NCBI RefSeq assembly: GCF_032051675.1
Contig: NZ_CP116968.1
Coordinates: forward strand, 1,426,001-1,490,000
DNA length: 64,000 nucleotides
Reading direction: 5' to 3'
Origin: Candidatus Nitrospira neomarina
Lineage (GTDB): Bacteria; Nitrospirota; Nitrospiria; Nitrospirales; UBA8639
In this document: positions 2-20,315 of the stretch, piece by piece
How positions within the stretch are numbered: the stretch's first letter is position 1
Layout: each line of letters begins with the position of its first letter
Made by a program: the position numbers and the translations under genes
The notes under the pieces: generated by a model
The model's input: the letters and a program-made list of their open reading frames with translations, nothing else
What the model was told of the DNA's origin: nothing
Databases searched by the model: none

Positions 2-2707
2 CGGAATGGCGTCATCAAGATTGCTAACGAATATCTTGAAGCCAAAACTCAGCCGTTGAGGGCCCATCCATTGGCCGCATTTATCCGTGATGCACTACCC
101 AAGGAAATCGGGCATGCGGTCAATAGGACAGGGGATGAACAGCAGCTTATCGTGCAGGGGACGAAACTCCCTGGCAATTGGGCTTCGGTCCCCTGGATTG
201 GGATTATGGATACCCGTCTTACGGACAGCATTCAACGAGGGATTTATGTCGTTCTGTTGTTTGCTGAAGATATGCGCACCGTCTTCTTCAGCCTTGCAAT
301 GGGTGTGCAGAATACCTCTCGGAGGACGCAAGCCTCGTGGCTTCGCCAGATTCCAAATGATTTTCCTCCGCCGGAGGGGTTTGCCACAGGTCCATTACCT
401 TCTGGGTCACTTGCGGCACAAGGAATCGGCGCCCGCTATGAGCAAGCTGTCGTTTACTTCAAGAAATACCCCCGCACCGAACTGCCGGATGAGATTAAGC
501 TGGAGGCAGATCTCCTCGTCATTTGCAATCTACTCCGGCGTATTGGTGATAGCGGACAATACCGAATTGCCAATGCCGACGAACAACCCGAAGTAATATC
601 TATTACCATTCAGGGCCGTGATTTTCAATTCTCAGCAGATGACGTTGAGCACGCCTTTGCAAAGACGACGGAACCGCAATGGAAAGACAGACCCGGGGTT
701 GAACCGTATTGGCATGTCATCGTTGGTGATGAGAGCAAGCCTGTCAAAGCTGTTTTTCGCAATCTCCCCGGTGTGTCAGAGGGCTTCGACTTCACAAAAG
801 ACGCCGCAGCACGGGCTTTCGAGCGCTTGAGTTTTGAAATTATCAATATCAAACAGGATCCGATGGTAGGCGAGCTCTGTCTACTCGGCACGTGGACTGA
901 CGTTGATGAAGAGGATGCAGTCCAGGTTAGAGCCGCTATTGCCTCCAAAAGCGCATGGGCTAGCTGGTGGAGTTTCCCGATTCGGGAGGAGTTCCACTCA
1001 AAGCTTCAACAACCGTTCTACTTTTACGTCAACGCTGGCAAGCAGAGCTTCCCTTTTCGTATGAAAGTTGAGCAATTTCAGACAAGCCGCGGTAATGAGG
1101 GGATGGCAAGCCCATGGCCAGAGATCACTGACGCTGAGTGTGTCGGTAAGTTACGGGCCGGACCCAAGAACTCCGAAGTCTTCAAAACATGGCTCTATGT
1201 GACGGAATTTGAATCGCTGGCCCCGCCGCTCACGTTGGATAGCTTTGACCCTGCGCTAGGGTCGAAGCGAACGGCACTTTTAAACCAGAGTGCATTTGGT
1301 TACGCATATCGGAAAAACTCTGTCGCTAACGAATTGGCACAACACCCACAGATCCCTCTCAATTTAATCCTCTATGGCCCGCCGGGCACTGGCAAAACAC
1401 ACTGGATGCGCCAGAAGTTCGCTGACTATACCAATGAACCAAGCGATGTGGACCACGAAACTTGGATCCAGGAATTACTCACCAACTATGGATGGCGTCC
1501 CGTGATTGCCGCATCGCTCGCCGAACTCAAGCATCCAGCACGGGTACCAGAGATTCGCGACCACCCCTGGGTACAAGCTAAGACGAAGCAACGTGGCCGA
1601 ACCGCGGCAGCGGTTCATGCCACGCTTTGGGGCTACCTGCAGGAACACACGCCCGAGACAGTTCCTGCGGTAAAAACCAGCATTCGCCGCCCCCCTTTCA
1701 TCTTCTCGAAGCGCGGCTCTGGTGAGTGGGAGTTGCAACCAGACTGGCAAGAGCTCGACGAGGAATCTGCCGAGCTCGCGCGCTTACTACAGGCAGGGCC
1801 TAGCGGAGCAATGGAGCCAATCCGTCGCTACCGCGTGGTGACATTTCATCCTTCCTTTAGCTACGAGGACTTCATTCGAGGGATTCGCCCTGTTGCGACT
1901 ACGGAGGATGGCTCGACCCAATTTCGTATAGTCGATGGGGTGTTCAAGCAGATCTGTGATGAGGCTCGCGCAAATCCGTCCAAACGCTATGCTCTCTTTA
2001 TCGACGAAATCAATCGTTCCAATATTGCCAAGGTATTTGGCGAATTGATCACCTTGATCGAGCCAGACAAACGGGCCGTCTTTGATGCGAAAGGGCGGCT
2101 GATAAAGGGAATGACGGTTCAACTGCCAGGGAGCGAGGGCGCGGATGTTGCTGAACCCCCTTTTGGCGTGCCAGCCAACCTAGATATCTTTGGCACTATG
2201 AACACAGCGGATCGGTCGATCGCATTACTTGATATCGCGTTGCGCCGACGTTTCGATTTCCAAGAGATGGAGCCCAACTACACTGTACTCGATCGGCTGG
2301 TTGGAAATGTGCATTTGGGTGCCTTACTGAGACGACTTAATGATCGGTTGGAATACCTACTTGATCGCGACCACCGCATTGGGCACGCATACCTCATCCC
2401 AGTGGATTCATTGGCTAATCTCCGTCGGGCGTTCAGTATGCAAATTATCCCGTTACTGCAGGAATATTTTTTCGACGACATGGGACGCGTAGCCATGATC
2501 TTGGCAACTAGCCCAAAGACCCCTCCCTTTGTCGAGTATGAGCGCCTCAGTCATGGCCAGCTGTTTCCGGGGACTCGTGCTAAGGGGCTCCCGCTCGAGC
2601 GGTCCCGTTACCTCGTAGGATTGGAATCGTCGTGGACGGAGGAAAGCTTTCTGGGCGTTTATGAATTACCAGCTGGTAGCGTCGAAGAAGAGGGAGAGCC
2701 TGCCTAG
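2..2707 (+). CDS. mcrB: McrB-like AAA+ motor of a type IV (modification-dependent) restriction system, 5'-truncated by window edge
   Basis: The frame is open to the left edge, so the true start lies outside; a TTG at 56 is only an internal candidate. The first visible residues (NGVIKIANEYLEAKTQPL, then HPLAAFIR) resemble the MrcB/DUF3578-type N-terminal domain. A middle part near visible residues 310-390, with WASWWSFP and FPFRMKVEQF, may be a modified-base reader of EVE/PUA type (inference). The C-terminal half is a McrB GTPase/AAA domain: Walker A GPPGTGKT near 459, Walker B followed by DEINRSN near 667, and the family signature GTMNTADRS near 731. McrB hydrolyses GTP to drive cleavage by McrC at methylated DNA. 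The nuclease gene follows after 3 bases, so the two form an operon. Confidence 0.9.
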   Translation, partial: RNGVIKIANEYLEAKTQPLRAHPLAAFIRDALPKEIGHAVNRTGDEQQLIVQGTKLPGNWASVPWIGIMDTRLTDSIQRGIYVVLLFAEDMRTVFFSLAMGVQNTSRRTQASWLRQIPNDFPPPEGFATGPLPSGSLAAQGIGARYEQAVVYFKKYPRTELPDEIKLEADLLVICNLLRRIGDSGQYRIANADEQPEVISITIQGRDFQFSADDVEHAFAKTTEPQWKDRPGVEPYWHVIVGDESKPVKAVFRNLPGVSEGFDFTKDAAARAFERLSFEIINIKQDPMVGELCLLGTWTDVDEEDAVQVRAAIASKSAWASWWSFPIREEFHSKLQQPFYFYVNAGKQSFPFRMKVEQFQTSRGNEGMASPWPEITDAECVGKLRAGPKNSEVFKTWLYVTEFESLAPPLTLDSFDPALGSKRTALLNQSAFGYAYRKNSVANELAQHPQIPLNLILYGPPGTGKTHWMRQKFADYTNEPSDVDHETWIQELLTNYGWRPVIAASLAELKHPARVPEIRDHPWVQAKTKQRGRTAAAVHATLWGYLQEHTPETVPAVKTSIRRPPFIFSKRGSGEWELQPDWQELDEESAELARLLQAGPSGAMEPIRRYRVVTFHPSFSYEDFIRGIRPVATTEDGSTQFRIVDGVFKQICDEARANPSKRYALFIDEINRSNIAKVFGELITLIEPDKRAVFDAKGRLIKGMTVQLPGSEGADVAEPPFGVPANLDIFGTMNTADRSIALLDIALRRRFDFQEMEPNYTVLDRLVGNVHLGALLRRLNDRLEYLLDRDHRIGHAYLIPVDSLANLRRAFSMQIIPLLQEYFFDDMGRVAMILATSPKTPPFVEYERLSHGQLFPGTRAKGLPLERSRYLVGLESSWTEESFLGVYELPAGSVEEEGEPA

Positions 2708-2710
2708 GCG

Positions 2711-4021
2711 GTGAGACCAGGCATGGCGTCCACTTATCTGACAGCCTTTGAGCATCAGCCTCTCACCGTGGGGTCCACCGACATCTGTGCAGATTTGACG
2801 ACGGGTGAGGCGGAACAACTTATTTTTCTTGGGGAGTTACGCCCTGGGTTTTGCAAACGGAGCTACCAGGCCATTTCCCTGGCGCAGTACTGCGGGCTAG
2901 TGGCGCTCGGCAACCGATCCCTTGAGATTCTTCCGAAAATCGACGATGACAACCGGCCGGATGAGTGTCGTGGGCTATTACTACGCATGCTACGAGAAGC
3001 AGCCGACATGTCGATCTTTCGTCATGTTGCCGTCGGTCACAATCTTCGACATGCCCCACTACTGGAAGTGTTTATTTCAGCATTCTTCGATATTGTGGCC
3101 TCGCTTGTTCGCGGTGGCTTGCTTCGGCAATATCAGGAACATGCGGAAGATCTTCGGGTGGTTCGTGGGCACATCATTACAAACCGCCAGTTCTCAGTCC
3201 ATGCCAACCGTCCGGATATTGTTGCATGTCGATTCGACGAACTGACAAGTGACAATCTCTGGAACCGTCTGCTCAAGGTTGCCTTACAAACGGTTGGGCC
3301 GTGGATTAGTAACACCGAATTGTATCGACGGTGGATAGAACTTAAGCTCGCATTCGATGAGGTTGCGGATATACATGCGAACGTGCAGATGTTGAATCGG
3401 CTCGTCTTCGACCGCCAGGCAACACGCTATCGGTTAGCCATCGACTGGGTAAGATGGATTCTCTCGCTCCTCTCCCCCGATCTTAGGGCCGGAGACAACG
3501 CCGCGCCCGGATTACTATTCGATATGAATGTGCTTTTTGAATCCGTCCTTGCTGCCTTGATAGGGCGAAATGCTATAGGTGCAGGTCTAACCTTGTTCGC
3601 CCAAGAAACTGAAAAGTATCTGGTAACCGTCCAAGAAAGTGGTGGGCACCGCGCGTTCGGCTTGAGACCGGATCTTGTTATCCGTCGTTCCGAGCAAGTG
3701 ATTGCAATTGGAGACACGAAATGGAAACGGCTCGTGGTCAGAAAAGACGGATATCTGTTACCACCCACCCAGGATCTCTATCAAATGCAAGCCTATGCCG
3801 CAGCATATAGCTGCGAGAACCTTGCCTTGATTTATCCATGGCATAGCGGATTGGCAGGTTCAAAAGAAACTGCATTTGAGTTACCACGTGTTGGTGAGAT
3901 GCAGCCAGTTGTCCACATCCTCTGTATCGACTTGCACAGTGACCCATTTGTATTAATCCGCGGCCTGAACATGTCGGAACTTGTTAAACTGCTGCCACGA
4001 GGCCGGGCTTCCAAGGCTTGA
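2711..4021 (+). CDS. mcrC: McrC-like nuclease subunit of the McrBC system
   Basis: 436 residues from GTG at 2711; an in-frame ATG at 2723 (MASTYL) is an equally good start. The N-terminal half matches the McrC fold that docks on the McrB ring. The C-terminal half has a PD-(D/E)xK nuclease core: LRPDLVI near 317-323, then GDTKWK near 333-338, giving the Asp and the DxK pair. It starts 3 bases after the McrB stop, consistent with translational coupling. Known role of the family: DNA cleavage between two modified recognition sites after McrB translocation. No truncation is visible, so the pair looks functional apart from the window cut in McrB. Confidence 0.88.
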   Translation: MRPGMASTYLTAFEHQPLTVGSTDICADLTTGEAEQLIFLGELRPGFCKRSYQAISLAQYCGLVALGNRSLEILPKIDDDNRPDECRGLLLRMLREAADMSIFRHVAVGHNLRHAPLLEVFISAFFDIVASLVRGGLLRQYQEHAEDLRVVRGHIITNRQFSVHANRPDIVACRFDELTSDNLWNRLLKVALQTVGPWISNTELYRRWIELKLAFDEVADIHANVQMLNRLVFDRQATRYRLAIDWVRWILSLLSPDLRAGDNAAPGLLFDMNVLFESVLAALIGRNAIGAGLTLFAQETEKYLVTVQESGGHRAFGLRPDLVIRRSEQVIAIGDTKWKRLVVRKDGYLLPPTQDLYQMQAYAAAYSCENLALIYPWHSGLAGSKETAFELPRVGEMQPVVHILCIDLHSDPFVLIRGLNMSELVKLLPRGRASKA

Positions 4022-4075: not shown

Positions 4076-4399
4076 ATGCCTGTTTTACCTGGCAAAAAAG
4101 ATATGGGGAAACTTAATAAGAGCACGCAACAGAACATGACCCACGATAATTATATGCGCCTGGCCATGGCCATGGCTCAGAAGGTCCCCCGATATCCCTT
4201 CGTCGCCGTGATCGTCCGACGGGCAACCGGGAGATATCGGCAAAGTTTTGACCGGCTTCCAGAAGTAACTCTAACAACCTCAAGCCGTGGCATGAAAACA
4301 ATCCAGGAATTCTATTGGCTAGTGGATGAACGCACACAAAGAGTGGTCAGTTGGAAGACTGAGGACCCCCAGGCAATGAAAGATGGACCTTTGCCATGA
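4076..4399 (+). pseudogene. Chimeric ORF carrying a duplicated N-terminal fragment of the downstream deaminase
   Basis: Residues 20-54 (NMTHDNYMRLAMAMAQK and onward to RRATG) closely match the start of the intact deaminase at 5203; the DNA identity covers about 4133-4235 and stops abruptly before the zinc-binding residues. The rest is unrelated: from an internal ATG at 4292 it reads MKTIQEFYWLVDERTQRVV and ends MKDGPLP. No deaminase activity is possible because the HxE and PCxxC motifs are absent. The stop overlaps the ATG of the next gene (ATGA at 4396-4399), so the 3' part may be a leftover small gene that was once coupled to the DUF6883 gene. Confidence 0.6.
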
Positions 4400-4728
4400 A
4401 ACTCTCAAATACCGCCAGGGCTATTGTGGATGTCAGAAAGCTTCGCGACTATTGTCTCAGCCGTGAACATCCGCGAGGTCAACACAAAGCCCGTGTCTTT
4501 CAGAGCGCCTTGGGATGGACTGCGGCCTCGGCAGAAGAGGTTCGTCGAAGGCTACTTGAAGTCGTACAGAAGGAAGAAGCCACTTTCCTCGGTTCAGATG
4601 ACTATGGAAAGCGGTATGCGCTAGACTTTTCAGTACACGGCCCCGCTGGGCCAGTAACCGTTCGGAGCTTGTGGATCGTCCGCCGTGCTGAGGACTTTCC
4701 ACGATTCGCCTCATGCTATATCCTATAG
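4396..4728 (+). CDS. DUF6883 domain protein
   Basis: 110 residues. The pattern KLRDYCLSREHPRGQHKARV followed by FQSALGW is typical of DUF6883, a small family of unknown biochemistry that often sits directly before a DUF4926 gene, as here. It begins inside the stop of the preceding ORF (ATGA overlap) and ends 15 bases before the DUF4926 start. The pairing of two short coupled genes in an accessory region recalls toxin-antitoxin or effector-immunity modules, but that is inference; no catalytic motif is recognised. Confidence 0.7.
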   Translation: MKLSNTARAIVDVRKLRDYCLSREHPRGQHKARVFQSALGWTAASAEEVRRRLLEVVQKEEATFLGSDDYGKRYALDFSVHGPAGPVTVRSLWIVRRAEDFPRFASCYIL

Positions 4729-4743
4729 GAAGGAGATTACCTC

Positions 4744-4953
4744 ATGATTCAAGATATTCGTGTCCTGGATGTGGTCGCCTTGACTAAGGATATTCCTGAG
4801 AGCAGCTTGCTGCGAGGACAAGTGGGGACCGTGGTGGAATCCCTTGGACCAGATATGTTTGAAGTGGAATTTGTGGATAATGACGGCCGAACCTACGCGA
4901 CGCTCCCCCTGAATTCCAGCCAACTCCTCGTGCTGCATTACCAACCTGCGTGA
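4744..4953 (+). CDS. DUF4926 domain protein, partner of the DUF6883 gene
   Basis: 69 residues, compact all-beta SH3-like pattern (DVVALTKDIPE, GQVGTVVE, FEVEFVD) that defines DUF4926. A strong ribosome site (aaggag, 4730-4735) precedes the ATG. It follows the DUF6883 gene by 15 bases and is probably co-transcribed. A diverged paralogue without a DUF6883 partner lies at 8241. The function is not known; an antitoxin or immunity role is a guess from the gene pairing. Confidence 0.75.
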   Translation: MIQDIRVLDVVALTKDIPESSLLRGQVGTVVESLGPDMFEVEFVDNDGRTYATLPLNSSQLLVLHYQPA

Positions 4954-5202
4954 CCGTATGTAGAAATGGCCTCCATTGTCGTCGTCGGGGTTAGGTCCTG
5001 CATTCACACATGATCTACCTTGCCCCTAGCCCTTCACTTCCTTCTCCATTACCAAATTTTTCTTAGCTGCACCGTGTTGAAGTGGGAGGGACTTTTTCTT
5101 TTCGTTTTCCTTCGGTTTTGATCGGATGAGAGAAAAGAATCGGGCAACGGCAGAGATGGATTTCAGAAAATACAGAAACAAACAGTGGTCTTTCCTTAGA
5201 GC

Positions 5203-5676
5203 ATGCAAAAAACTAAAAAGAACATGAGTCCCGATGAGTATATGCGCCTGGCCATTGCCATGGCACAGAAGATCCCCCGGTATCCCTTCGGCGCCGTGAT
5301 CGTTCGACGGACAACCGGAGAGGTCCTCGCGAAAGGGTATAACCGTTCTTCCCGCAACCCTACCCTCCACGGCGAAATCGATGTGATCAATCGTTGTGCG
5401 GCCAAACATGGACCTGTGGATTGGACGGAACTGGACTTGTATACAACCGCCGAACCGTGTCCCATGTGTCAGAGTGCGATCGAGTGGGCGGGCATTGCTA
5501 CCGTGTACTTTGGGACGTCGATTCCGTTTCTCCAACAACTTGGTTTTCGGCAAATTGATATTCGAGCCGAAGAGGTGGCGCGACGAACTCCTTTTCGGAA
5601 CACGAGAGTGATTGGGGGGATTCTAGAGCAGGAGTGTAATGCGTTGTTTGAGGAGGTGCAGCGCGAGGACATTTAG
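5203..5676 (+). CDS. Nucleoside/tRNA-adenosine deaminase family protein (cytidine deaminase fold)
   Basis: 157 residues. Zinc-site motifs are complete: His56 and catalytic Glu58 in HGEIDVI, and the PCPMC motif with Cys86 and Cys89. The C-terminal FGTSIPFLQQLGF and VIGGILEQEC segments resemble GuaD/TadA-like free-base or nucleoside deaminases more than TadA proper, so the substrate is uncertain. The start is ATG 5203; ATG 5224 (MSPDEYM) is an alternative, and neither has a strong ribosome site. A truncated copy of its first third lies upstream at 4076. A structured repeat begins one base after its stop codon. Confidence 0.85.
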   Translation: MQKTKKNMSPDEYMRLAIAMAQKIPRYPFGAVIVRRTTGEVLAKGYNRSSRNPTLHGEIDVINRCAAKHGPVDWTELDLYTTAEPCPMCQSAIEWAGIATVYFGTSIPFLQQLGFRQIDIRAEEVARRTPFRNTRVIGGILEQECNALFEEVQREDI

Positions 5677-5677
5677 A

Positions 5678-5870
5678 TGCCGGGTTTCGACCCCGGACGA
5701 CGAGCCACTTTTGTTTCGGCAAAAGTGACCAAAACCATTGACGCCCCGTCTGGCTTTTTTGAAGAGGAGGGACGCGAACTTTTTGAAGAGCGGCCCAACT
5801 CGCATGGCTCAAACAAGGGCCGCTACCTGCGAAGAGCGTCCCTCCCGGGGGCCAGCCGGCAGGCGTCGGA
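5678..5870 (+). repeat. Structured repeat, copy 1
   Basis: Full copy of the dispersed family. First hairpin CCGGG/CCCGG around a TTTCGA loop. Second hairpin has arms CACTTTTG and CAAAAGTG around TTTCGG, so the stem sequence differs from most copies (GGTCCTTTTG/CAAAAGGACC) but still pairs, apart from one mispair at its base. Long-range arms GGAGGGACGC and GCGTCCCTCC are intact. It begins one base after the deaminase stop. Confidence 0.9.
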
Positions 5871-5879
5871 ACAAAATGA

Positions 5880-6064
5880 AAGCGTATTGAGGCAAACCCA
5901 CGGACGGTGGTCCAACTCGCGGAGTTTGTCCTGAGCCAACGCCGAAGGGCTCAAACAGTGCCCGCCTTTTTCCCGGTACCGTTTGCACTGCTTGGCCATG
6001 CCACCAGGCCAGGGAGCCTAGCGGGGAAGGTGAATGAAAAGGCCACCAGATCAGCCGACAGGCG
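5880..6064 (+). repeat. Variant (type B) repeat unit following copy 1
   Basis: Lacks the two 5' hairpins but ends like the family (cagccgacaggcgtcgga). Its middle matches the variant middle of the copy at 10438: ggctcaaaca, then tgcccgcc, then the gccatgccaccaggccag segment. This implies an alternative module of the same element. Confidence 0.65.
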
Positions 6065-8837: not shown

Positions 8838-9029
8838 CCGGGGTTTCGACCCCGGACGACGAGGTCCTTTTCTTTCGGGAAAAGGACCCAAAACCATTGA
8901 CGCCCCGCCTAGCCTCATTGAAGAGGAGGGACGCTAACTTTTTGAAGAGCGGCCCAACTCGCAAGGCTCACCCAAGGGCCGCCAGATGCGAAGAGCCTCC
9001 CTCCCTGGGGCCAGCCGGCAGGCGTCGGA
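8838..9029 (+). repeat. Structured repeat, copy 2
   Basis: Full copy. The second hairpin reads GGTCCTTTTC/GAAAAGGACC: compared with the usual GGTCCTTTTG/CAAAAGGACC, both members of the loop-closing pair have changed together. The GGAGGGACGC arm is intact; its partner has one mismatch (GCCTCCCTCC). Starts 28 bases after the HicB stop. Confidence 0.9.
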
Positions 9030-9238: not shown

Positions 9239-10177
9239 TTATCTTTTATTTTGTGAGACCGTCTGTCGGGTGGTGCGGCTCCTTCCCTGTGGTTTCCTCC
9301 GGTGTTTATTGCCTCGTAGTATTTTGTTGTTGACCCATTCCTGTAACGCTATCCATACGGTATCTGGTTCGCTGCCGTCGCGGCTTGCCTCTTGCGCACA
9401 TATCAGAATCTCTTGGTACGACCGCACGTGGAACTGGACCTGATCCTGTCTGATCGTCCGGGTGAATTCGCTCCATTCCGGGGCTTTGACCTTTTGAGCC
9501 ATGGGCAGATCGGGGCTGTCCGCATAGACGATGACCACCGCCGGTTGCTTATTTTTCTGCCGCGCCAGCTTATAGGCCACGACGAGATTGCGCATCCATT
9601 GGTAGGCCGGTCCCGCGAATGGACAGGGGTGGTAATCGGTTTGGGCATCGAGGTGAAAGACTTTCGGAATGATGTCCCAATACTGAATGTCTTTTTCGCT
9701 TAAGGCGCAGCGACTGGTCATGTCGATGACGCGCTTGGCTTGCTGCGCATAGTTTCCATTGCACGGGACGGAGCCATTGCGCCGCACCGTTTGCGAGCAT
9801 GCCCCTCCATCCTGCTCCGTAAATTTACATTCAAACATGATCACGGAATGGGGATTTTCCGCATAGACATCCACTTGGGTCGGACAAGGTTCATTGAGCA
9901 ATGATGCGCGCGCGCGCCATTCCAGGATGATCTCCCAGGGACCGCCGGGCGGCACCCCCAGGTTGGTTGCCAGGGCATCGAGAATCGCCTCGCATTCAGA
10001 GGAGGTTTTGATGGTGCCGAAGACATCAATCGCGAGCGCTTGGGATGAATGCGTGAAATGGGTATCGATGGCTCCTCCCCGGCCTGTGTGCCACGGAAAA
10101 GTATCCCATGGTACACAGGCTTGATGCGCGTGGGGAAAGATATTACGTTCGAGGCGTGTTCTAGTGGCATGGTCCAT
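9239..10177 (-). CDS. Putative PD-(D/E)xK endonuclease-like protein (PGN_0703-type)
   Basis: 312 residues, start ATG 10177. A nuclease-like core is visible: Glu86 (WEIILEWRA), Asp103 (TQVDVYAEN), then FECKF with Glu116 and Lys118, the D...ExK spacing of the PD-(D/E)xK superfamily. Many cysteines (CKFTEQDGGACSQ, NGSVPCNG) may bind a metal. It resembles proteins annotated as PGN_0703-family putative restriction endonucleases; this is recalled, not searched. No methylase or partner gene is beside it. It sits alone between two repeat copies. Confidence 0.6.
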   Translation of the reverse strand: MDHATRTRLERNIFPHAHQACVPWDTFPWHTGRGGAIDTHFTHSSQALAIDVFGTIKTSSECEAILDALATNLGVPPGGPWEIILEWRARASLLNEPCPTQVDVYAENPHSVIMFECKFTEQDGGACSQTVRRNGSVPCNGNYAQQAKRVIDMTSRCALSEKDIQYWDIIPKVFHLDAQTDYHPCPFAGPAYQWMRNLVVAYKLARQKNKQPAVVIVYADSPDLPMAQKVKAPEWSEFTRTIRQDQVQFHVRSYQEILICAQEASRDGSEPDTVWIALQEWVNNKILRGNKHRRKPQGRSRTTRQTVSQNKR

Positions 10178-10437
10178 AGGTGTTGGCCTTCAAAGTGAGC
10201 ATAGGAATTGGAATGTGGTGTTTATTTCTTTATCGGTGAATGAGGGATGAAGCTGAATGAGGGAGGAAAATGTTGGATGGATATAGGGATGGGGAGTTTC
10301 ATATTGAATACGTGAATGCATTGGAAGATTGGCTGGGGCTTGGGCATGGCCGGGGTGATCGATTGAACTCTCGGAAGGGGGAGACGATAGGTGCCCGGTG
10401 GTAAATGTCGTGAGGGATGCGAGCGTGCCCTTGAGAC

Positions 10438-10730
10438 CGGGGTTTCGGCCCCGGACGACGAGGTCCTTTTGTTTTGGCAAAAGGACCCAAAACCATGTTG
10501 GCCGTGCCATGGCCCTTCGGGTGTCCTCCGCGGTTCACCGGCCCCGGCGGCGGGCAAACTCGCCTGGCTCAAACACTGCCCGCCTTTTCTCCGGGGCCGG
10601 TTGCACTGCTCGGCCATGCCACCAGGCCAGGGGACCCTAGAGGCCAAGGTGAATGAATTTGCAGAGATCCAACACGGGTCGGAAACTTTTTGAAGAGCGT
10701 CCCTCCTTGGGCCAGCCGGCAGGCGTCGGA
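10438..10730 (+). repeat. Structured repeat, copy 3 (long, type B middle)
   Basis: Both 5' hairpins and the 3' end are those of the family. The middle is replaced by a longer module with its own nested stems: arms ACCGGCCCCGG and CCGGGGCCGGT enclosing GGCGGGCA and TGCCCGCC. The apical loop (aactcgcctggctcaaaca) is nearly the same as in standard copies, although the stem holding it is different. Confidence 0.85.
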
Positions 10731-10897: not shown

Positions 10898-13767
<2,870 letters not shown>

Positions 13768-14613
13768 TCAGTCGTGGCGAGGCGTGACCTCTGCCTCATC
13801 TGTCTGCCAGGTGGGATACTTTCCCGGTTTTCCCAAGAAGGGTAAGGCCATGAGCCGCCACCAGGTGAGCTGAGTTGCGTCCCGGTATTCCTCCAGGCCA
13901 ATCTCCATCCGTTTATGGCCCTGGATGGGGTCACGCCAGTAGGTGCCGAGCAACCGATCCCACCACGGCAGGTTAAATCCGAAGTTCCGATTGGTTTCCC
14001 ATGGGATCACCGAATGATGGATGCGATGCATATCCGGCGTCACGAGAAACCATCTGAGCAGACGATCCACCGTCCAGGGAATGCGCACATTGCTATGATT
14101 AAACATGGAGGTGGCATTGAGCAGGACTTCAAAGGCGACCACCGCGCCGGGTGAGGCGCCGAGTAAGAGCACCGCGCTAATTTTGATGACCATGGAAAGA
14201 AGGATTTCAAGTGGATGAAACCGCACGCCGGTGGTGACGTCAAAATCTACATCGGTGTGATGCACCATGTGCAGACGCCAGAGCAGCGGCACCGCATGCA
14301 TAAGCACATGTTGAAAATAGACGACCAGATCTAACAGGATGACGACCAGGGTGAATTCCCCCCACCAGGGCCAATCCACTTGATTAAAGAACCCCACTTC
14401 CCCCTGCGCGGCCAGGACCGCTGCGCCCACCGCTCCTGATGCCGTGAGCATGCGGATGAACACCGTGTTCCCAACGCCCATGGCCAGGTTGATTCCCCAG
14501 CGGGTGGACCGGGACGCGGACCATGCACGACGGGGTGACAGCCATTCCCACACGGCCATGATGGCGAAGATGCCGATAAACGCGCTGAGGCGAATGATGA
14601 TGTCGGAGTTCAT
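13768..14613 (-). CDS. Sterol desaturase/fatty acid hydroxylase superfamily membrane protein
   Basis: 281 residues, start ATG 14613. The eight-histidine di-iron signature is complete: H102/H106 (HVLMH), H115/H118/H119 (HMVHH), H173 (FNHSN) and H196/H199/H200 (HRIHH). Four or five hydrophobic segments surround them. Such integral membrane di-iron enzymes use O2 to hydroxylate or desaturate lipids or carotenoids; the substrate is unknown here. It follows katG upstream on the same strand but 443 bases away, so it is probably a separate unit. Confidence 0.85.
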   Translation of the reverse strand: MNSDIIIRLSAFIGIFAIMAVWEWLSPRRAWSASRSTRWGINLAMGVGNTVFIRMLTASGAVGAAVLAAQGEVGFFNQVDWPWWGEFTLVVILLDLVVYFQHVLMHAVPLLWRLHMVHHTDVDFDVTTGVRFHPLEILLSMVIKISAVLLLGASPGAVVAFEVLLNATSMFNHSNVRIPWTVDRLLRWFLVTPDMHRIHHSVIPWETNRNFGFNLPWWDRLLGTYWRDPIQGHKRMEIGLEEYRDATQLTWWRLMALPFLGKPGKYPTWQTDEAEVTPRHD

Positions 14614-14820: not shown

Positions 14821-15073
14821 GCCGGGGTTCGGCCCGGCAGCCGAGTGTTTGCGTGGGGCGTCTTTTCCTTTTTGAGGTCTTCCGGGGTTTCGACCCCGGA
14901 CGACGAGGTCCTTTTGTTTCGGCAAAAGGACCCAAAACCATTGACGCCCCGTCTGGCCTTATTGAAGTGGAGGGACGCGAACTCTTTGAAGAGCGGCCCA
15001 ACTCGCAAGGCTCAAACAAGGGCCGCCAGATGCGAAGAGCGTCCCTCCTTAGGACCAGCCGGCAGGCGTCGGA
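14821..15073 (+). repeat. Structured repeat, copy 4 with leader hairpin
   Basis: Starts with a leader: hairpin GCCGGG/CCCGGC and about 40 further bases, then the core from 14882 with all stems intact. First member of an array continuing to 16158. A linker of 107 bases (15074-15180, type L1) connects it to copy 5. Confidence 0.92.
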
Positions 15074-15180
15074 TTCACTGTCTGCATGCTGATTGGTGCG
15101 GCGGCCCGAGTGACTGACCTGCAGGTGGTGCGTGGGAAGTCTGATTATTATTATCCGAAAGCTGGGAAAGTTTTGAGATC

Positions 15181-15371
15181 CCGGGGTTTCGCCCCCGAAC
15201 GACGAGGTCCTTTTGTTTCGGCAAAAGTGGCCAAAACCAGTGACGCCCCGTCTGGTCTCATTGAAGTGGAGGGACGCGAACTTTTTGAAGAGCGGCCCAA
15301 CTCGCCGGGCTCAAACAAGGGCCGCCAGATGCAAAGAGCGTCCCTCCTTGGGCCAGCCGGCAGGCGTCGGA
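15181..15371 (+). repeat. Structured repeat, copy 5
   Basis: Core copy without leader. The second hairpin is imperfect here (GGTCCTTTTG against CAAAAGTGGCC), looking like a hybrid of two stem versions. Long-range and inner stems are intact. A type L2 linker (15372-15453) follows. Confidence 0.92.
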
Positions 15372-15453
15372 CAAAGTAGGAGAGGAACCTTTATGGGATT
15401 CCCATGCAAGCGGGAGAAGTGCAGGAAGGACAGTGAAGGGAAGGGAAGAAAGA

Positions 15454-15706
15454 AGCCGGGGTTCGGCCCGGCAGCCGGGTGCTTGCGTGATGCGTCTCTT
15501 CCTTTTGAGGTCTTCCGGAGTTTCGGCCCCGGACGACGAGGTCCTTTTGTTTCGGCAAAAGGACCCAAAACCATTGACGCCCCGCCTGGTCTCATTGAAA
15601 TGAAGGGACGCGAACTTTTTGAAGAGCGGCCCAACTCGCCGGGCTCAAACAAGGTCCGCCAGATGCAAAGAGCGTCCCTCCTTAGGACCAGCCGGAAGGC
15701 GTCGGA
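15454..15706 (+). repeat. Structured repeat, copy 6 with leader hairpin
   Basis: Leader hairpin plus core from 15515. The first core hairpin has one mismatch (CCGGAG/CCCCGG), the outer arm reads GAAGGGACGC, and the inner right arm reads GGTCCGC. Followed by another L2 linker (15707-15784) about 80 per cent or more identical to the one after copy 5. Confidence 0.92.
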
Positions 15707-15784
15707 CAAAGTAGGAGAGGAACCTTTATGGAATTCCCACGCAAATGGAAGAAGCGCAGGAAGGACAGTGAAGGGAAGAAAGAA

Positions 15785-15974
15785 GCCGGGGTTCGGCCCG
15801 GCAGCCGAGGTCCTTTTGTTTCGGCAAAAGGACCCAAAACCATTGCCGCCCCGTCTGGCCTCATTGAAGAGGAGGGACGCTAATCCGGAGAAGAGCGGCC
15901 CAACTCGCAAGGCTCAAACAAGGGCCACCAGATGCGAAGAGCGTCCCTCCTTGGGCCAGCCGGCAGGCGTCGGA
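15785..15974 (+). repeat. Structured repeat, copy 7 (leader hairpin joined directly to second hairpin)
   Basis: The leader hairpin is fused to the GGTCCTTTTG hairpin, deleting the intervening first core hairpin; recombination between the two similar GC hairpins explains this. Other stems are present apart from small changes (gggccac). An L1 linker (15975-16080) follows. Confidence 0.9.
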
Positions 15975-16080
15975 TCAATAATCTGCTTGGTGTTTCGCGC
16001 GATGTCCCAGGAGGTCGACTTACAGCTGGTGCCATAGAAGTTTGATTAATATTGTCGGAAAGATGAAAAGGAATTTGGAT

Positions 16081-16158
16081 GCCGGGGTTTCGGCCCGCGA
16101 CGACAAGCCACTCTGGTTTCGGTCAAAGTGGCCAAAACCATTGACGCCCCGTCTGGCA
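16081..16158 (+). repeat. Structured repeat, copy 8 (5' half only)
   Basis: Contains the first two hairpins and then stops after gacgccccgtctggc, giving way to unrelated sequence. The second hairpin is CCACTCTGG against TCAAAGTGG around TTTCGG, an alternative stem version. The truncation ends the array. Confidence 0.85.
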
Positions 16159-17540: not shown

Positions 17541-17676
17541 GATGCCCGAGGGTTCCGCCTCCGGACAACGAGGTCCTTTTTGTTTTGACAAATGGACCTA
17601 AAACCATCCACGTCCCGTCTACGGGTCTGCCAAATGCGAAGGGTGCCCCTCCTTGGGCCAGCCGACAGGCGTCGGA
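17541..17676 (+). repeat. Structured repeat, copy 9 (degenerate, internally deleted)
   Basis: Recognisable 5' hairpins with several mismatches and an intact 3' end, but the central long-range stem region is mostly deleted. Followed by a 42-base linker (17677-17718) identical but for one base to that at 18632-18673. Confidence 0.8.
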
Positions 17677-17718
17677 TGTCTGATCAACAATGTCAGCATG
17701 GTGGGAAATTTTTTGGAT

Positions 17719-17909
17719 GCCGGGGTTCGGCCCGGCAGCCGAGCCACTTTGGTTTCGGTCAAAGTGGCCAAACCCATTGACGCCCCGTCTGGTCTCTCTG
17801 AAGTGGAGGGACGCGAACTTTTTAAAGAGCGGCCCAACTCGCCGGGCTCAAACAAGGTCCGCCAGATGCGAAGAGCGTCCCTCCGTTGGGCCAGCTGGCA
17901 GACGTCGGA
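17719..17909 (+). repeat. Structured repeat, copy 10, truncating a toxin gene
   Basis: Begins with the leader hairpin fused to a CCACTTTGG/TCAAAGTGG hairpin around TTTCGG. Compared with the GGTCCTTTTG/CAAAAGGACC version, most pairs are changed on both sides. Its 3' flank (tgtctgatcaa) replaces the end of the DUF5615 gene and supplies a stop codon. Confidence 0.92.
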
Positions 17910-17916
17910 TGTCTGA

Positions 17917-18184
17917 TCAAAACGAGATCTGCTCTACTGGGGATTGTCCGCCCGGACGAAACAAGACTATGCCGGGAGCAGGCTGTTGCCGACAACACCA
18001 GTTCGCCAAAATCACGATCGAAAGTCAGCAACACACGAGATTGAGTTACGGCTTCGCGCAACACCTCCTCATCGGAAGCCGCTATCAGTGACTCCGCTGC
18101 ATACAGGACGTCGTGGCCGTGCGTTCGAAGTAATTTGACGATTGAAGCAGGAAAATTTTCGTCGGCAAGATACCGTTCACTCAT
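17917..18184 (-). pseudogene. DUF5615 PIN-like toxin, frameshifted and truncated by repeat copy 10
   Basis: Starts MSERYLADENFPASIVKLL with PIN-like acidic residues (ADEN, ASDEEV, TFDRDFGEL). After GELV the frame breaks: removing one base near 17993 restores FRQQPAPGIVLFRPGG, the expected family continuation, then SPVEQISF. The restored protein of about 89 residues lacks the usual last 25 or so, because the repeat flank begins there and gives TGA at 17917-17919. It is the partner of the DUF433 gene 8 bases upstream. Both defects suggest a dead toxin. Confidence 0.8.
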
Positions 18185-18192
18185 GCGGACGT

Positions 18193-18435
18193 TCAGGTCG
18201 GCGGCAGCAAATAGAACCGTTCCTCCCGGAAGATTTCCGCAGCATACGCCAGCACAGCACGAAGGCGATCCTCAGTCAGGTTGGGGTAATTGTCACATAA
18301 CGCAGTTTGGTCCCATCCAGCCGCCAGCAAATCAAGCACGAACTCCACAGACAGACGGGTTCCCTTGAGAGCTGGTTTTCCACCCAAAATTGCTGGATCG
18401 GACACAATGTAGTCTCGCCAATTAATGGCGGGCAT
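18193..18435 (-). CDS. DUF433 (VapB45-like) antitoxin
   Basis: 80 residues, start ATG 18435, ribosome site aaggag upstream. Classic DUF433 pattern: INWRDYIVSDPAILGGKPAL, KGTRLSVEFVLDLLAAG, then YPNLTEDRLRAVLAYA. These winged-helix-like proteins are antitoxins to DUF5615 PIN-like nucleases. The toxin gene follows 8 bases downstream but is broken, leaving this protein without an active target. Confidence 0.88.
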   Translation of the reverse strand: MPAINWRDYIVSDPAILGGKPALKGTRLSVEFVLDLLAAGWDQTALCDNYPNLTEDRLRAVLAYAAEIFREERFYLLPPT

Positions 18436-18631: not shown

Positions 18632-18673
18632 TGTCTGATCAACAATGTCAGCATGGTGGGAAAGTTTTTGGAT

Positions 18674-18866
18674 GCCGGGGTTTCGACCCCGGACGACGAG
18701 GTCCTTTTCTTTCGGGAAAAGGACCCAAAACCATTGACGCCCCGTCTGGTCTCATTGAAGTGGAGGGACGCGAACTTTTTGAAGAGCGGCCCAACTCGCA
18801 AGGCTCAAACAAGGTCCGCCAGATGCGTAGAGCGTCCCTCCTTAGGACCAGCCGGCAGGCGTCGGA
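18674..18866 (+). repeat. Structured repeat, copy 12
   Basis: Full core. The second hairpin is the GGTCCTTTTC/GAAAAGGACC version also seen in copy 2. Long-range stem intact. Followed by the start of an L2 linker (aaagtaggagaggaacctttt) that diverges after about 25 bases. Confidence 0.92.
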
Positions 18867-20062: not shown

Positions 20063-20315
20063 GACGGGTTTCGGCCCGGGAGCCGAGCGCTTGCGTGGAG
20101 CCTCTTTTCCTTTTTGAGGTCTTCCGGGGTTTCGGCCCCGGACGACGAGGTCCTTTTGTTTCGGCAAAAGGACCCAAAACCATTGACGCCCCGTCTGGCT
20201 TTATTGAAGAGGAGGGACGCGAACTCTTTGGAGAGCGGCCCAACTCGCCGGGCTCAAACAAGGGCCGCCAGATGCAAAGAGCGCCCCTCCTTAGGACCAG
20301 CCGGCAGGCGTCAGA
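20063..20315 (+). repeat. Structured repeat, copy 13 with leader
   Basis: Leader hairpin with mismatches, core from 20123, all core stems intact except small end changes (cgtcaga). An L1 linker (20316-20421) with the same length as those after copies 4 and 7 follows. Confidence 0.9.

Follow-up and report, generated by a model that had tools for sequence, protein, structure and literature searches.

What are the tandem repeat copies at positions 14821-16158 of this stretch of the Candidatus Nitrospira neomarina chromosome, and how did they become joined by two kinds of conserved linker? We analysed the stretch at its full length of 64,000 nucleotides (the window) together with related genomes. 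A preliminary description had linked copies 4 to 8 in the order L1-L2-L2-L1, and this layout was borne out: the array comprises five copies of an approximately 190-nt element, which we call E, four of them full and one truncated, arranged as follows.

14880..15072, plus strand: E copy 4, full, followed by L1
15073..15180, plus strand: linker L1, equal to E tail class T2
15181..15370, plus strand: E copy 5, full
15371..15512, plus strand: linker L2 (tail class T1, first approximately 80 nt), then a 5' leader with a second hairpin-1-like stem
15513..15705, plus strand: E copy 6, full
15706..15785, plus strand: linker L2 (T1)
15786..15973, plus strand: E copy 7, full
15974..16081, plus strand: linker L1 (T2)
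16082..16157, plus strand: E copy 8, truncated, matching core positions 3-78

The first L2 stretch measures 142 nt, of which approximately 80 nt are L2 and the rest the second hairpin-1 leader, and copy 8 is cut at about core position 78-95, so that all it has left is hairpins 1 and 2 plus the beginning of the long hairpin. Successive copies start 299, 334, 269, and 298 nt apart; the periods near 299 and 270 that had been described are thus real, and the 334-nt period had been overlooked. Tandem Repeats Finder left the array at 14821-16158 unreported, probably because these periods are unequal. In alignments scored against 1000 shuffles per comparison, the recurrence of both linkers held up, with L1 copies 70-74% identical (scores of 36-42.5 versus shuffle maxima of 18.5-20.5) and L2 copies 87-95% identical (58-65 versus 21.5-23.5); L1 aligned to L2 did not outscore shuffles. 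The two short L1 stretches, which lie farther along the window, are identical to one another at 43 of 44 positions, but their supposed likeness to full L1 is weak, beating all shuffles for one copy (L1c) and not for another (L1b).

The suspicion that the array is an assembly artefact can be ruled out: it lies in a single 4.8-Mb chromosome contig, its copies differ by 5-18%, and relatives carry orthologous arrays of other lengths. The five copies here compare with three behind the same gene pair in one relative (G001) and with one to three per joint in another (G008). This variation in array length among genomes agrees with the earlier proposal of a composite element growing by unequal exchange, but neighbouring cores are not each other's closest kin. 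Copy 14880 is 95% identical to the copies at 18675 and 20122 but only 90-93% identical to its array neighbours. Simple local tandem duplication was rejected since the closest relatives of the cores are not their neighbours, and for the same reason we attribute the array to exchange with distant copies combined with local unequal crossing-over. The linkers do move together with the cores, in keeping with the idea that they belong to the amplified unit, but they were not made by this array. Among 119 full copies of E in four genomes, 34 carry tail T1 (equal to L2), 25 carry T2 (equal to L1), and 12 carry T3; because L1 and L2 are thus present across the genus, we regard them as tail classes of E. 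Nor is the unit isolated: the array is one joint within two large islands that reshuffle gene cassettes between E copies.

E is a dispersed, non-coding DNA repeat with a conserved core of approximately 190 nt that has sharp ends (45 copies aligned) and is followed by one of several 3' tails. Its 5' part contains stem-loop 1, CCGGGGTTTCGnCCCCGG, and stem-loop 2, GGTCCTTTTG-TTTCGG-CAAAAGGACC, followed by CCAAAACCATT; its 3' part is a long hairpin, GACGCC...GGCGTC, with the conserved apical loop CCAACTCGCnnGGCTCAAACAAGG. Besides the two small stem-loops and the long hairpin, a CCAAAACCATTGACGCC segment is conserved. Tail T3 (window 5876-5968 and other T3 tails) carries one more hairpin whose apical loop repeats this motif (CCAACTCGC...GGGCTCAAACA). 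At positions 3435382, 3442355, and 3462587 of G001 and at position 1409021 of this genome (G000), the same pair of small stem-loops is joined to a second long-hairpin type (GTTCAGCCATATTACAAGAGGC...), and a third version (TTGGCCATnCTGTGGCCCTTCGGG...) stands behind the same CAAAAGNNNCCAAAACCAT segment in G173, a UBA8639 assembly (for example, C9:2724-2809 and C131:1508-1593).

Across 51 copies, 13 of 37 base pairs in E changed on both sides, giving 94 covarying cells versus 36 in shuffles, and this covariation collapses in every slid register. Both strands fold far better than shuffles, with an RNA fold z of about -6. Such strong covariation and folding, along with the frequent position of E at gene 3' ends, would also suit a structured RNA or a 3'-end regulatory or terminator element, arrays arising because one is needed per gene. 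We give this reading very little credence. Mismatches in the stems are about equally G-T and A-C (82 versus 67, two column pairs left out), so that neither strand is favoured, and the conserved structure points to maintenance at the level of DNA rather than RNA. In addition, E lacks a T run and occurs in both orientations relative to genes, and a search of the window with Rfam at gathering cut-offs returned only two tRNAs and no family matching E. The absence of an Rfam match and of any strand preference among the mismatches led us to reject an RNA gene as the identity of E. In stem-loop 2 alone (alignment A1, columns 27-52), both arms change in concert, GGTCC/GGACC and GCCAC/GTGGC being the two main types, and the type is the same in only 60% of cases even for copies that have both flanks in common, which suggests frequent conversion or templated mutation. 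In some genomes, an unrelated short palindrome of the CCTGCCCTGAGCCAAGCCGAAGGGG type sits inside stem-loop 2 (L192, with E at G000:3399345-3399557; also L074), as if this stem-loop were an insertion target.

E has at least 45 matches in the 4.8-Mb G000 chromosome, and it is present in all 20 genus genomes. Among the genomes searched, full-length E occurs in this genus only. Two sister genera match its first 76-80 nt and then diverge into another long hairpin, similarly laid out, whose apical sequence is AACTCGCTTCGCTCAGACA. We describe the wider family by a two-part pattern, CAAAAGNNNCCAAAACC-N45-75-AACTCGC, which read backwards gave 0 matches in seven genomes. The pattern is also found in Pseudoxanthomonas, Xanthomonas, Lysobacter, Sedimenticola, and Nitrospinota MAGs; the copies examined outside the genus are dispersed rather than arrayed. 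An origin of E in plasmids or phages was rejected, as E had no match in either and the exact pattern of its stem-loop-2 segment gave 0 hits in viral contigs. We found no paper describing E in the literature searched, and family sequence strings had no match in the literature, where sequences are seldom printed in the text.

Within G000, E is clustered at 1.4036-1.4165 Mb (all minus strand), at 1.4317-1.4467 Mb (all plus strand; this window), at 1.611-1.617 Mb (minus), and at 1.6295-1.632 Mb (plus), with smaller groups besides. These clusters form two defence and toxin-antitoxin islands punctuated by E, each with two arms of opposite E orientation around a variable defence centre. In both large clusters of G000, McrBC or Mrr follows a type I restriction operon with an AAA_21 ATPase to make up the centre. 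Upstream of McrB, the block bordering the window's arm contains hsdR, hsdM, hsdS, the AAA_21 ATPase, and one uncharacterised gene. The window holds the end of that block and, outside the array, the following genes and E copies.

56..4021, plus strand: McrB (56-2707) and McrC (2711-4021), the part of the central defence block that reaches into the window
5682..5869, plus strand: E copy, the first of the right arm, beside the central defence genes, then tail T3
8838..9028, plus strand: E copy, recombinant relative to two separate G008 copies
9239..10177, minus strand: cassette gene with a REase-ARP domain; order differs in G001, G008, and G019
10437..10729, plus strand: disrupted E copy in two pieces
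10898..14613, minus strand: cassette of a peroxidase (10898-13324) and a fatty-acid hydroxylase (13768-14613)
17550..17675, plus strand: E copy with an internal deletion
17677..17719, plus strand: short L1
17720..17908, plus strand: E copy, full
17822..18435, minus strand: DUF5615 toxin-like ORF (17822-18184) and DUF433-type partner (18193-18435; partner assigned by sequence)
18632..18674, plus strand: short L1 behind a deleted E in which hairpin 1 directly joins the E 3' end
18675..18865, plus strand: E copy, full; the start of its 3' tail resembles L2
18992..19753, minus strand: cassette gene with an Lcl_C domain
20122..20312, plus strand: E copy, full, then L1
20481..20671, plus strand: E copy, full, then L2 (20672-20745)

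Many of the small genes between E copies are of the toxin-antitoxin type, including HigB and HTH genes and DUF433/DUF5615 genes (Pfam); further genes of this type are assigned by sequence only. The DUF5615 toxin-like ORF at 17822-18184 terminates within the E copy at 17720-17908, so its C-terminus would be encoded by the repeat. At 4103-5676, beside the first E of the right arm, a deaminase-like gene is present in a full (5203-5676) and a truncated (4103-4399) form with a small gene between them, and relatives occupy the same joint in G001, G019, and G008. The two-armed layout recurs in the orthologous islands of G001 and G019, and in G008 the corresponding arms lie on two contigs. What fills the centre differs: G001 has Dsr1-like genes, G019 has type I restriction-modification subunits together with matches to PDC-S06 and HEC-05, and G008 has DISARM/DpdE/Druantia-like genes.

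Comparison of gene order across genomes links the rearrangements to the repeat. Inside the arrays, adjacency of genes was kept in 45 of 55 cases without E between them versus 8 of 48 with E (Fisher p 1.7e-11, or 3.6e-7 with gaps >100 nt only), in a test that used a simple home-made gene finder and comparisons that are not fully independent. The REase-ARP and peroxidase/hydroxylase blocks, for example, stand in swapped order in G000 and G001; a 369-aa gene lies in the left arm in G019 and in the right arm in G008, in the same orientation relative to E; and at 1.8 Mb, one gene-plus-E unit of G000 is missing from G001. In 7021 pairwise comparisons of E copies, the 3' flank was shared in 231, the 5' flank in 137, and both in only 17, at a threshold that 0 of 3000 random pairings reached; the 5' and 3' flanks thus assort almost independently. 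In these Nitrospira-type bacteria, E stands at the joints where genes for toxin-antitoxin systems and phage defence are reshuffled.

Sharing of single flanks bears on whether E is a REP- or MITE-like miniature element copied in trans by a transposase such as the REP-associated Y1 enzyme, with the array arising by repeated insertion beside existing copies. The high copy number, intergenic position, and palindromic nature of E, together with its dispersal outside arrays in sister genera, would fit such an element, Y1 transposases score above cut-off in 18 of 20 genomes, and at one locus, six genomes have E and approximately 100-200 nt of flanking DNA that three more distant genomes lack. Pure insertion, however, predicts unrelated flanks, which the shared single flanks contradict, and neither a target-site duplication nor a sharp insertion boundary was found for E. 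A search at 3.399 Mb for a clean empty site with target duplication found none, and the locus at 4.61 Mb had merely short partial matches in other genomes. E also greatly exceeds REPs in size and does not have the single hairpin with GTAG/CGTC that characterises them. Finally, G001 is rich in E (52 matches) yet has no Y1 transposase (Y1_Tnp), on which ground we rejected mobility driven by RAYT; transposition as a whole we hold to be quite improbable.

The positions of exchange within E are informative as to mechanism. Copy pairs that share the 3' flank show excess identity from approximately position 80 on, and those that share the 5' flank only up to approximately position 50. This averaged profile, with its signal near 50-88, hinted at a single fixed exchange point, an idea we rejected because individual crossovers with both parents known disagree, falling in at least three zones, at approximately 34-47 (window copy 8838), 69-92 (G001 3435382), and 205-213, and because the triplet breakpoint signal within E is weak. 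A model of homologous recombination that needs 25 identical bases places approximately 70% of crossovers at 46-96. As the crossovers lie in several conserved tracts rather than at one point, homologous ectopic recombination fits best. Given the weak triplet signal, a site-specific enzyme followed by gene conversion could look similar, and the action of such an enzyme at E is possible but unproven.

We consider it probable that the joints arose by ordinary ectopic and unequal recombination between E copies with no dedicated enzyme. With dozens of mostly 80-96% identical copies lying between small genes in two islands, E would serve as an anchor for RecA-type exchange, and recombination between direct copies would delete, duplicate, or move the intervening gene cassettes and tails or stack them in tandem. 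The L1-L2-L2-L1 array would be one such stack, made of geneless cassettes that each consist of E plus a tail. We infer that the agent is RecA-type recombination and that the arrays persist through selection for turnover of defence genes. Homologous recombination leaves the first spread of E and its strongly conserved structure unexplained.

E arrays may work like cassette arrays, which raises the question of whether they derive from integrons, the long hairpin being attC-like and the cassettes being shuffled by an integrase since lost or by a recombinase in trans, be it XerC/XerD or another, as in a CALIN-like array. Several features speak for this: the arrays contain small, promiscuous toxin-antitoxin and defence genes, and of the 116 genes between like-oriented E copies, 83 are antisense to E and 33 same-sense; the long hairpin stays with the gene that turns its 3' end towards it; and its plan of outer stem, internal loop, second stem, and variable part resembles that of attC. 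Four genomes (G002, G004, G008, and G010) moreover retain decayed C-terminal pieces of integron integrases with TIGR02249 as best family (L066:3276-3431, L067:4419-4508, L068:7469-7555, L069:5997-6113, and L240:7663-7746), which we counted against the model of homologous recombination. No intact counterpart of these pieces was found, however, no integron integrase scores above cut-off in the 20 genomes, E is also present on only 3 of the examined contigs with remnants, and the tyrosine recombinases of G000 comprise only two intact proteins, both XerC/XerD-like, and one broken fragment. The repeat itself fits poorly: RYYYAAC...GTTRRRY at attC spacing occurs in 4 of 238 E strands, as against 4 in shuffles, the outer stem is GAC/GTC, the apical loop is highly conserved, unlike that of attC, and the breakpoints are not confined to one position. 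Canonical attC identity was rejected because the core motif is no commoner than in shuffles, and since E lacks this motif, we do not claim membership of the integrons; derivation from them, by decay or divergence, seems unlikely, although it is the leading alternative to recombination between copies. Distinctly unlikely, in our judgement, is that E is the recombination site of a cassette system related to but distinct from integrons and worked by XerC/XerD or another recombinase. The sites of such a system would be hairpins of approximately 130 nt, closed at the base by GAC/GTC and conserved in the apical loop, an architecture that would be scattered through Xanthomonadaceae and other phyla. 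If true, a distinct cassette system shuffles toxin-antitoxin and defence genes in Nitrospirota.

Reading E as an anchor of homologous recombination, we can set the islands beside known systems. Two CALIN have been reported for Nitrospira inopinata in the IntegronFinder 2.0 paper (PMC9024848). Like a CALIN or sedentary chromosomal integron (PMC9024848), the islands place small genes, many of them toxin-antitoxin genes, between co-oriented long hairpin sites, with gene order reshuffled and the integrase absent nearby. They differ in that E lacks the attC core motif, includes two accessory stem-loops and tails, shows crossovers at more than one base, has a conserved apical loop, and lies in two oppositely oriented arms that enclose a defence centre. 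The pdif sites of Acinetobacter are XerC/XerD binding sites on plasmids (PMC6449649), and there, too, gene modules including toxin-antitoxin pairs are bounded by short sites and moved between contexts; E, by contrast, is approximately 190 nt long, chromosomal, and not found on plasmids, and inspection of its consensus by eye revealed no dif-like 28-mer. REPs are single hairpins of 20-40 bp (PMC3733652, PMC2817692). E shares with REP and BIME repeats its intergenic, palindromic, many-copy nature and its occasional tandem occurrence with flanking DNA, but it has three hairpins, approximately 190 nt plus tails, and bounds gene cassettes. As in defence islands and hotspots, the central block exchanges whole defence systems between genomes; here, unlike there, the centre is flanked by two opposite-orientation arms of one repeat family.

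These findings indicate that a chromosome can reshuffle its toxin-antitoxin and phage-defence genes with no integrase or transposase close by, by way of a multi-copy structured repeat at each joint. The family, searchable by its two-part pattern, joins unexplained intergenic repeats of Nitrospirota and Xanthomonadaceae, and it makes testable the question of whether such arrays are defunct integrons or independent recombination scaffolds.
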